A stretch of 64,000 bases of DNA from Cunninghamella blakesleeana (Eukaryota; Mucoromycota; Mucoromycetes; Mucorales; Cunninghamellaceae): assembly GCA_017871115.1 (NCBI GenBank), contig JAFCIZ010000006.1, forward strand, positions 4,092,001 to 4,156,000, in the 5' to 3' direction. Position numbers and translations under genes: made by a program. Positions 60,393 through 64,000 of the stretch are shown one piece after another; the first letter of the stretch is position 1, and each line of letters opens with the position of its first letter. Below the pieces are notes generated by a model. That model saw nothing but the letters and a program-made list of their open reading frames with translations, did not search any database and had not been told where the DNA came from.

Positions 60393-62000
60393 CTTGCCAA
60401 TTGATATATTTAAAAGAGAAAACCTTATTTTTTCAGAGTATATAACTTACATCAATAGTTATGCGGTTAAGTTTTAAAGAAAGAACATCATGTATAAGTG
60501 CTTGATAAGTCCATGAGTGACTAAGCATTGGTGTAATATCCATACTTCGATCCAATAAAATAAGTACTGTATGTTACGATAAAAAAAAAAGGGAGGATTG
60601 GTAAACATACTTTTTTTTCTTTTTTCTAAATAATAATAATATATATATATCAGTTTTTATTGTTACCAGGACGTTGTAAATTAACAGAAGTATTTGTGTT
60701 TTCAGAAAAGAGGTTTGTACGTGAATTCATCAAATGATCTCGAAGTTTACTATCCAATTTATTTGCTATCATTTCTGCTGCATTTCCACGAGGACATCTA
60801 ATGATGGGTATAACACCTACATATGATTAAGAAATAAAAAATAAAAAATTAAAATTATGACCATAAATGATTGAGCATATTTCTATTTCTATTTATGTAT
60901 ATTATCATTTTACCTAATGTAACAATAACTGAAAATAATGAGTTGACAGTACGATCAATAGTTTCATCTATTAAAGTTTCAGGAGCACTTGGGTTATTTA
61001 AATTGATAAATACATCAGGTTGATTAAGTGAGAATACATCAGGATTGGTACATATAAAATTAAGATATTGATCATAAACCTATCATATATCAAATAAACA
61101 AATAAAAGGAAGGCCCATTGTTAATTTATACATATATATAATTTTTATTATATATCTATGTCTTTAAGGATTTCATTCTTTTTTACTTACTTGATTGACA
61201 GAATCAGCGGTATTATTTGTAATGGTTGTTGTTGCAAATTCTTCCAAAATTGGACGAGGAATTGTAGAGGAGAAATTGATATAATAAGAATCATATAAAT
61301 TGCGATTTAAATCCTATATATAATACATTTATTTAAGCATAAAGTTTCCATTTCTATTTTCGTTTTCATTTTTATTCCTATTATATATTAATTGCCAAAT
61401 ATATAAAATTCTAGGTATCTTTTACCTCACAAACTTTTCTAACATTTTCCGAAGTTGGTTCAATAAAATAAATAGCAGGAACATCAGGTAATGGGGATCG
61501 ATCTTGATTTAAAAGCCTAAAATATATGAATAAACATACATACCATAAAATAAGTATATGTATATATATCATGTTACTTTATATCCCCTATTATATAATT
61601 TTTTTTTATTTTTTATTTTTATTTTTTACATATGAACTGTAATGCCGTTTTCTCGAAGATCATTGACACGCATAATAGATGAAATAATATCTTGTCCAAA
61701 TTTATCAAAAATAAGTACTTTCCAAACAGAGCCTTCTTTAGAAGTATCGTTATATACATCAACTTCGTTTTCATTGTTGGTTTTATTATTGAGATTTAAC
61801 ATGGACGCGACAGCAGCTAATGTAGATATTTAAAAAAGGTAAAAGAAGAAAGATAGAAAGAAAAAAGATGAGATGGTTTATACATACACATATATTAATA
61901 ATATTAACATATAAATAAAATAAAATAAAATTGGAGTTTGTTGTATTATACCATATTGCGCTGATCTTAATGAAACAGTATCTGTTGAAGTTGTTGCCAT
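58876..62000 (-). CDS. SLY1: Sec1/Munc18-family protein Sly1
   Basis: An SM protein that binds Sed5/syntaxin-5 and drives SNARE assembly in ER-Golgi transport. Twelve exons (62000-61952, 61816-61630, 61516-61426, 61313-61191, 61079-60914, 60816-60667, 60566-60451, 60341-60254, 60159-60066, 59985-59811, 59726-59427, 59331-58876) give 664 aa, the usual Sly1 length. Signature segments are [124 protein letters not shown] and [18 protein letters not shown] Ser/Gly-rich patch precedes the last strand ([20 protein letters not shown]), as in other Sly1 proteins. It is transcribed away from HAC1. Confidence 0.96.
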
Positions 62001-62451
62001 AATGTATTAAACTACTTTCGTATTAAAAATAAAAGAATAAATATAATTTTTTTAATAAAAAAGAGAAAAAAAAAGAGGAATGGTATTTTTTTTTAAAAAT
62101 CATTATCAAAAAATTGAAAGGGGTTTAAAGCCCGCCGGATTTTTTTTGGTGATCATTGATTTTTTTATATTATTTAAAGAATCTATACTCTACCATAAAT
62201 ATAATGATATTATACCAATATATCATCATCACTATCTGATAATACTAATGTTACAAATAGCGTATATTAGTATTTTATTTATAAATTTAAGATAGTATGT
62301 ATAAATAATATATTAAATATTACTAGATTTTTTTTTCATTCAATGTAATTAATATTTATACTTTGTATAATTTTTTTAATTTTACTTTATTTTTTTCAAG
62401 TGGATGAAATATAAATAGATTTTTTTCACAGTCATTTTTTGTCATTATAGA

Positions 62452-62496
<45 letters not shown>

Positions 62497-62912
62497 GTTT
62501 ATAAAATAATTTTCCTCCTTCTTTAAACTAGGAATATATTGGTATCTTTTAATAGGACAACACTGTGCCACTTAATCTTTGGAATTTTATTATCAAACCA
62601 AAAATATTTGTTCGAAAATGATTGGATATGGAGTTTAAAATAAATTAAGTCTTTTGGTTTTTCGTTTAAAAAAGAAATTTTTTTTTTCCACCTTTTTTTT
62701 TTTTTCTTTTCTTTTCTTTAGACTTCTTTTTTTTTAACAAAAAAAAACTTACTTTTTTTTATTAATTGATCTATATTATTTTCCATTGGGTGGTGGTTTA
62801 TATAGATCTGTTTTATTATTATTCTTATTACTTAATTGAAAAAACAACAGCTTTCTCTCTCTCTCTCTTTTTTTTTTTTTTGACTCTTGTTATAAACTTT
62901 ATTAATATTATC
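62001..62912. promoter_or_regulatory. Divergent region SLY1 / HAC1, including HAC1 leader
   Basis: 912 bp. Near SLY1 there is a TTTAAAGCCCGCCGG box (62125-62139), a GC-rich variant of the recurrent motif. A (TA)n tract lies at 62456-62490 and CAACACTGTGCC at 62560-62571. T-rich stretches follow. No ATG occurs between 62781 and the HAC1 start at 62913, consistent with a leader of at least 132 nt. A CT-repeat (62853-62868) precedes T15. Confidence 0.45.
62781..62796 (+). promoter_or_regulatory. HAC1 leader arm complementary to its intron
   Basis: TTCCATTGGGTGGTGG in the presumed 5' UTR, 117-132 nt before the start codon. It is the exact reverse complement of 63705-63720. In yeast HAC1 the same kind of leader-intron pairing stalls translation. 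GC content is far above the surroundings. Confidence 0.8.
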
Positions 62913-64000
62913 ATGGCCAATACTGTTAGTTCTACTACTACTTCAAGTGATAATACTTTAACTGATTTGTTATCATTCCCTATGGATTTTTCTATTGATC
63001 CTTTGATGACTTTTCAAAATACCTCTTCATGTTCTCCTTCTCCTCTTTCACATAATGAAGCCTTGTTTCCTTTAACTTCTGAATTAATGTGCTCTTCTTC
63101 TCCTTCGGATGGTTCAACTGTTTCTTCGGATAGCAGTTCTACTATTGGTTCTCCAAATATGATGACGATGCCTACCATTACTAAGAAAAAAGGAATGAAA
63201 ACTGGAACAACCAAAAAAGCAAGACTTTCATTGGAAGATAAAGATCAAAAAACCAAAGAAAGAATATTAAGAAATCGTGCAGCTGCTCAAGAATCTCGTG
63301 ATCGAAAACGTAAATATGTTGCTGATTTAGAAACTACTAATAAAAGATTAACAACAGAAAATGAATCAATGAATAAACGTATGAAATTATTAGAATTGGA
63401 AAATCAATCTTTACAACAACAATTGGCTCTTTTTGCTCAACAATTGGCCCAAGTTCAAGCTTCTCAGCAACAACAACAACAAAAAGTGAATAATACCTCT
63501 TCATCATCATTATTATCGTCATCTTCCTCTTTATTTACTCATGGCTTTTGCGATTCAGCACGGATCGTAATAAAAGGTTTATCTTGTTTATTATGAAAAA
63601 AATCAATCTATCGTAACTGTGTACCAAAATTGAAGTGAAATATCAAGTATATAGATCAACTCTTTTAAAAAACTGTAATGAAGTTCTCAACCAAAAAATG
63701 AATCCCACCACCCAATGGAATTTTTATTTTGATATTTGTTATTTAAACTACTACTATACTCTACTTCAACAATGGACCCTTTTGATTGATTGATACTTTA
63801 TATTTTTTTATATACATACGATAACCTTTTCTCCCTGCAGCGGAGGTTGTGAAGCAAATGAAGGTTGAAAATGGTGATAATAACGATGATGATGAACAAC
63901 ATGACTATATGCCCTCTCCTATGTTATCTCCTCCTATCTCTTCCTCTTCTGAATGTGAAACGGATGATGAACCTATTTCTCCTCCTCAACATATTGAATT
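62913..64000 (+). CDS. HAC1: HAC1-type bZIP transcription factor with IRE1-type intron (partial)
   Basis: The unfolded-protein-response activator; it runs off the window end. The first ATG gives MANTVSSTTTSSDNTLTDLL, an acidic/Ser-rich region, then the bZIP: KERILRNRAAAQESRDRKRK, YVADLETTNKRLTTENESMN and leucine heptads to about residue 180. The basic region with RNRAAAQESR.RK is that of Hac1/XBP1. Unspliced, the frame ends HGFCDSARIVIKGLSCLL (stop at 63594-63596). Removing 63559-63837 joins GATTCAG to CAGCGGAGG. The reading then continues D-S-A-A-E-V-V-K-Q-M into an acidic, Pro/Ser-rich activation-type tail (DDDEQHDYMPSPMLSPPI) to the window end. A spliceosomal alternative (GT at 63578 to AG at 63840) would also keep frame, but its donor GTTTAT is unlike every other donor here. 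Confidence 0.88.
63548..63570 (+). promoter_or_regulatory. Candidate IRE1 5' cleavage stem-loop in HAC1
   Basis: Stem 63548-63555 pairs with 63563-63570 (eight pairs, two of them G-U) and leaves a seven-base loop CAGCACG. The predicted cut is after G63558 (CAG|CACG). It matches the CNG|C part of the consensus, but +3 is C rather than the usual G. Confidence 0.65.
63705..63720 (+). promoter_or_regulatory. HAC1 intron arm complementary to the leader
   Basis: CCACCACCCAATGGAA lies 147 bases into the predicted 279-nt intron. It is a perfect 16-base complement of 62781-62796. Confidence 0.8.
63830..63846 (+). promoter_or_regulatory. Candidate IRE1 3' cleavage stem-loop in HAC1
   Basis: Stem TCTCC/GGAGG (63830-63834 with 63842-63846, one G-U) closes the seven-base loop CTGCAGC. 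The predicted cut is CTG|CAGC after G63837. The loop fits the CNG|CNGN consensus of HAC1/XBP1 completely. Confidence 0.75.

Follow-up and report, generated by a model that had tools for sequence, protein, structure and literature searches.

The analysed window, a 64,000-nucleotide stretch of Cunninghamella blakesleeana DNA, sits on contig C6 of the assembly and carries a HAC1 gene at its right-hand end. The unspliced HAC1 open reading frame (62913-63596) encodes a 227-aa bZIP protein with a PF00170 domain (E 5.5e-10) that is 99% identical to P0001 and 87% identical to its counterpart in Cunninghamella echinulata. The search with Hac1u returned 52 homologs, and the named ones all belonged to Mucoromycota. 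An earlier note on this DNA had identified the gene as HAC1 of what looked like an early-diverging fungus. Both identifications were borne out: the first by the bZIP character of the protein, a predicted stem-loop at either splice site of a 279-nt intron, a junction shared with two spliced homologs and the presence of an IRE1 locus, and the second by the protein relatives and the lineage (Mucoromycota, Mucorales, Cunninghamella). The IRE1 kinase/RNase is encoded at one locus, on contig C11, where PF06479 was found in two exons (E 7.9e-23 and 2.2e-12). No second HAC1-like gene was detected in the organism's own genome, the next match being 29% identical over the bZIP part (E 3e-5). Relatives of the C. 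echinulata protein were, as expected there, absent from the bacterial/archaeal (66 pattern stretches) and viral (9) contigs. Rfam gave only two matches over 62000-64000, with E values of up to 5 and scores far under the gathering scores. The features of the locus are as follows (a slash marks a cut or junction throughout).

62768-62808, forward strand: predicted leader hairpin with a 9-bp stem (62768-62776 / 62800-62808) and the left arm in its loop
62781-62796, forward strand: left arm of the complementarity, TTCCATTGGGTGGTGG, at -132 to -117 relative to the HAC1 start codon, in the putative leader (exact match and genome-wide listing)
62913-63558, forward strand: coding part of HAC1 exon 1 (bZIP)
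63498-63551, forward strand: exon 1 strand of a predicted exon 1-exon 2 helix (49 pairs, -48.7 kcal/mol)
63548-63570, forward strand: 5' IRE1-type stem-loop, cut CAG/CACG after 63558 (z -2.62, weaker in a 56-nt window)
63559-63837, forward strand: IRE1-type intron of 279 nt with an in-frame stop at 63594-63596 (spliced homologs P0013 and P0030)
63705-63720, forward strand: right arm of the complementarity, CCACCACCCAATGGAA, with a predicted apical loop at 63708-63715 inside it (exact match and regional fold)
63831-63845, forward strand: 3' IRE1-type stem-loop, loop CUGCAGC at 63835-63841, cut CUG/CAGC before 63838 (pair probabilities 0.74-0.79 in a 491-nt context)
63838-64000, forward strand: coding part of HAC1 exon 2, continuing past the window to 64040
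63840-63895, forward strand: partner strand, in exon 2, of the predicted helix between the two exons

Removal of the IRE1-type intron converts the 227-aa frame into a 282-aa frame with a new C-terminus (...DLFDWDGQQTF) and a stop at 64040. The resulting DSA/AEV junction is the one annotated in Hesseltinella vesiculosa P0013 and Mucor lusitanicus P0030. CDSA was present in 44 of the 56 proteins from two homolog searches and missing from the other 12; 42 of the 56 read CDSARI into the intron, three of them (P0031, P0033, and P0036) reaching an exon 2-like tail through another annotated junction. The 3' loop, CUG/CAGC, agrees with the consensus CxG/CxGx as given in an excerpt of PMC8881652. The 5' loop, CAG/CACG, departs from that excerpted consensus at the sixth base, and its predicted fold closes the loop to 5 nt. 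Taken alone, the 3' stem-loop was no better than shuffled sequences (95 of 200 as good) and was absent in 56-nt windows. A spliceosomal GT-AG intron, with GTAATA as donor at 63567 and its acceptor AG at 63840, was also considered and rejected; its joined frame stops at 221 aa (...DSARIRRL) without the acidic exon 2.

Several further observations were made within the intron. The read-through tail that it encodes, RIVIKGLSCLL (63562-63593), is identical to that of C. echinulata at 10 of 11 positions; it might serve as a degron like the 10-aa tail in yeast, or might be held by an RNA hairpin. Among the 42 homologs that read through, 10 have tails ending in C, CV, or CI (P0018, P0020, P0023, P0024, P0025, P0026, P0028, P0029, P0034, and P0047), hinting at an intron element common to the homologs. 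CTGTGTA occurs in the HAC1 intron at 63617-63623. A 31-codon ATG-led frame (63698-63793), which begins just ahead of the right arm and spans it, is probably due to chance.

The earlier note had drawn attention to 16 bases upstream of HAC1 that are the exact reverse complement of a segment within the predicted intron. This was correct in each particular: 62781-62796 matches 63705-63720 perfectly, 9 of the 16 bases in each arm are G or C in a region of 16-34% G+C, and the two arms are separated by 908 nt. Since the IRE1-type intron was placed at 63559-63837, the right arm is intronic. A pattern search of the assembly (31.9 Mb, 12 contigs) listed these two sites as the only exact copies of the 16-mer, together with one site bearing one mismatch and 16 bearing two. 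The 16-mer matched 10 forward and 9 reverse sites against 9 and 8 for the same pattern read backwards; because these counts are about equal, a recurrent DNA motif was rejected for the whole assembly.

The complementarity was compared with several chance controls. When a 150-nt leader (62763-62912, limits chosen by us) was dinucleotide-shuffled and matched to the intron, none of 4000 shuffles reached at least 16 complementary bases; the longest match was 15, in three shuffles, with 0-2 G/C. Perfect inverted repeats of at least 12 nt with a spacing of 300-2000 nt were then surveyed in 264 kb, comprising 20 segments of 10 kb from contig C1 and the window. Of 3433 repeats, 722 were at least 16 nt long and 218 were exactly 16 nt, indicating that length alone is not rare in this DNA. 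The G/C count, however, was 0-6 in 3432 of them, and the HAC1 pair, with 9, was the sole repeat with at least 7. Sliding the same geometry across the 264 kb yielded 3240 pairs, 58 of which reached at least 16 bases, the HAC1 match being counted twice among them; apart from HAC1, the listed pairs were A/T-rich or simple. The predicted energy of the arm duplex, -31.8 kcal/mol, lay well below those of 150 shuffles (mean -12.8, minimum -18.3) and below the minimum of 300 genomic pairs (-24.2). The judgement that a chance match is very unlikely was thus upheld by the shuffles and by a G/C content unmatched in the survey. A second complementarity, 62766-62776 with 63649-63659 (11 nt, A/T-rich), was set aside because at least 11 nt arose in 247 of 4000 shuffles and because it would cross the main helix; its leader half doubles as a strand of the leader hairpin.

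We then considered how the two arms are predicted to behave in the RNA. The best partner of the left arm in the mRNA was the intron, where overlapping windows at 63693-63711 scored -16 to -31.8, compared with -15.1 for the next site. Folding of 63470-63960 gave -95.1 kcal/mol (z -3.49, with none of 100 shuffles as good); in this fold, the splice-site stem-loops stand side by side, the two exons form a long helix, and the intron forms a hairpin whose apical loop, CCACCCAA, lies within the right arm. When a 108-nt segment of the intron containing the right arm was folded by itself, it was no better than shuffles (164 of 200 as good, z 0.85). The leader hairpin that holds the left arm in its loop had a z of -2.77, with three of 200 shuffles as good. 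Of 5000 shuffles, 15 contained a 9-bp stem like that of this hairpin, as did 202 of 28400 genomic windows. The left arm had an unpaired probability of about 2e-5 in local folding, which placed it in the lowest 3-6% of mRNA 16-mers (about 97% were higher, 150-nt windows).

The predicted exon 1-exon 2 helix is an extra feature, absent from the earlier note. It comprises 49 pairs over about 55 nt (13 G-C and 10 G-U), 42 of which were kept in the regional fold, and it was equalled by none of 2000 codon-order shuffles and none of 1940 genomic pairs. These statistics are optimistic because the exon pieces were picked after the fold had been seen; in 30-nt windows the helix was weaker, and two of 100 dinucleotide shuffles and three of 100 codon shuffles were as good. 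As predicted, the helix would clamp the splice sites and bring the IRE1 stem-loops at the two ends of the intron next to each other. The XBP1 mRNA is reported (Peschek, 2015) to contain a conformational RNA zipper, in which RNA pairing around the IRE1 intron is said to favour exon joining. In contrast to that zipper, the predicted helix in Cunninghamella is much longer (49 pairs) and surrounds a 279-nt intron.

Whether the arms pair in a predicted fold depended on how much of the mRNA was included. When the mRNA was folded only up to the intron end (62770-63837), all 16 arm pairs formed, with a mean probability of 0.80. In contrast, none of the 16 formed in nested folds that included exon 2, where 199 pairs link the two sides, and imposing the arm helix cost 33 kcal/mol in a 1471-nt nested model. 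The arm helix is missing from the nested whole-mRNA fold because the exon 1-exon 2 helix crosses the arm pairs. An additive estimate that leaves out loop penalties favours the arm duplex, since the 31.8 kcal/mol that it yields outweighs the 9-12 kcal/mol needed to open the two arms, and it is therefore plausible that the arm helix and the exon helix coexist as a pseudoknot. Folding, which the earlier note had proposed as a check, thus recovered the arm helix up to the intron end and lost it in the nested folds that extended into exon 2.

The pairing could only act on the mRNA if the left arm belongs to the leader. The sequence TTTATATAG lies directly 3' of the left arm (62797-62805) and could be a TATA box; the chief alternative is therefore that transcription begins beyond the arm, on its downstream side. 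The left arm would then be promoter DNA, with transcription starting at about 62830-62880, and the intron match would be a small inverted duplication without an RNA function. Consistent with such a promoter are ATTGG, the reverse of CCAAT, at 62785 within the arm, the adjoining TTTATATAG, and, closer to the start codon, a tract rich in C and T (about 62850-62880). A longer leader draws no support from the ATG-free stretch upstream of HAC1, since its 282 nt is expected in 23% of shuffles (P about 0.2, not significant), nor from a profile of 47 ORFs, four of which have a stretch as long (the profile is noisy, with too few ORFs and an admixture of internal exons). On the other hand, TATA-like words are frequent in this A/T-rich DNA, the 16-mer is not recurrent in the genome, and a promoter leaves unexplained both the G/C-rich 16-base match and its intron arm being predicted in an apical loop. 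We regard this explanation as unlikely, although it deserves to be taken seriously. A leader intron that would remove the left arm was not apparent: 62501-62912 contains no GTNNGT donor, and one weak GTATCT lies at 62542.

We therefore return to the reading of the earlier note, in which the complementarity holds unspliced HAC1 mRNA untranslated, as in yeast. In Saccharomyces cerevisiae, the HAC1 leader pairs with the intron over 15 bp (-25.15 kcal/mol) at -38 to -20, and 11 bp are enough, according to an excerpt of PMC8881652. The yeast pairing blocks initiation, and 24 additional bases between the cap and the duplex relieve the block, as described in the excerpts of PMC8881652 and PMC5114014. 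The 16 bp of Cunninghamella would exceed the yeast minimum, provided that the left arm is leader. To the extent that the excerpted yeast work allows comparison, the two genes share a long IRE1 intron in a bZIP gene, a leader (in Cunninghamella a putative one) complementary to mid-intron, and a read-through frame that stops early in the intron. Unlike the yeast pairing of about 15 bp, the match in Cunninghamella is a perfect 16 bp, and its candidate leader arm lies at -132 to -117 instead of -38 to -20. A leader hairpin and a long exon-exon helix, both predicted, further distinguish Cunninghamella from yeast as described in those excerpts.

A yeast-type HAC1 attenuator in a Mucorales fungus is, in our view, the best explanation of these results and a reasonably probable one; it is well motivated but unproven. 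In unstressed cells, the unspliced mRNA would pair its leader (62781-62796) with the tip of the hairpin formed by the 279-nt intron (63705-63720), and the resulting 16-bp helix would impede ribosome recruitment or scanning. Upon ER stress, activated IRE1 would cut both stem-loops, kept adjacent by the exon helix. The exons would then be ligated, the intron would depart carrying its arm, and the mRNA would be translated into the 282-aa form with its new C-terminus. The complementarity, the intron with its frames, the IRE1 locus and the predicted folds come from sequence or computation; we infer that the left arm is transcribed, that the helix forms in cells, and that it blocks translation until released. 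The proposal of yeast-like repression was supported in part, by the HAC1 identity, the long intron, the non-chance match, the strong predicted duplex, and the location of both arms in predicted loops. The greater distance of the arm from the start codon, the poor accessibility of the left arm, and the missing helix in the nested fold speak against it.

The helix might instead form and serve another role, as a tether between the 5' end and the intron for IRE1 targeting, as protection of the mRNA, or through an excised intron that acts on the spliced leader. The predicted helix is stronger than that of yeast (-31.8 vs -25.15), and the intron might therefore remain bound after splicing; the excerpt of PMC5114014 discusses the marginal stability of the yeast duplex as required for release. 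Nothing in this analysis lends such a role positive support, and in the excerpts of PMC5114014 and PMC8881652 the leader-intron pairing of yeast blocks initiation, so that we consider it distinctly improbable. A chance or transient mutational inverted repeat, picked by eye from 64 kb, is very improbable indeed: repeats of this length are common in the survey, but the G/C content and the shuffles argue against it, and the match joins exactly the two places expected from the yeast model.

Kluyveromyces lactis and Hansenula polymorpha are members of the Saccharomycetales, unlike Cunninghamella. Their HAC1 introns (297 nt and 177 nt, respectively) are thought to pair with the 5'UTR, and in K. lactis the leader at -52 to -28 pairs with the intron (excerpts of PMC6116095 and, for the introns, PMC10608004). 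The predicted pairing of a long intron with the 5'UTR in Cunninghamella resembles what these excerpts describe. HXL1 of Cryptococcus neoformans seemingly has no leader-intron complementarity, according to the excerpt of PMC6116095, and the excerpt of PMC6222058 reports long HAC1 introns in Candida parapsilosis and its relatives with no mention of leader pairing. In Aspergillus niger hacA, an 18-bp inverted repeat lies wholly in the leader and is relieved by a shorter transcript from alternative starts, and the intron is 20 nt long (excerpt of PMC6627864). In hacA so described, a leader structure is held to keep this HAC1 homolog untranslated until stress sets in, and the Cunninghamella pairing would act to similar effect; unlike in hacA, with its repeat all in the leader and its 20-nt intron, the Cunninghamella arms span the leader and a 279-nt intron. 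No published Mucorales HAC1 attenuator was found among the matches listed in the open-licence PMC literature (e.g., the best 20 of 103). PMC7711463 names Cunninghamella with HAC1 and IRE1, and in its excerpt cites yeast work only.

Because the device is reported, in the excerpts consulted, only in some Saccharomycetales and not in Cryptococcus HXL1, a Mucorales attenuator probably arose independently of that of budding yeasts rather than anciently. More tentatively, and with greater doubt than for the attenuator itself, we suggest a complete Mucorales HAC1 RNA switch, independent of budding yeasts, in which the exon helix clamps the IRE1 stem-loops and the intron forms one long hairpin; the apical loop of this hairpin would kiss the one in the leader and so lock the mRNA before splicing. 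The lock and the clamp would then constitute one pseudoknotted device dismantled by a single IRE1 reaction. On paper, the Mucorales case would work like the yeast attenuator, and the sequence feature expected of one is present. If true, a working attenuator in Mucorales would lie outside Dikarya, and a single ancient origin versus repeated invention could become testable across Mucorales HAC1 loci. Research into the silencing of mRNAs by a leader helix before IRE1 acts would also gain a second natural switch, of a different design.
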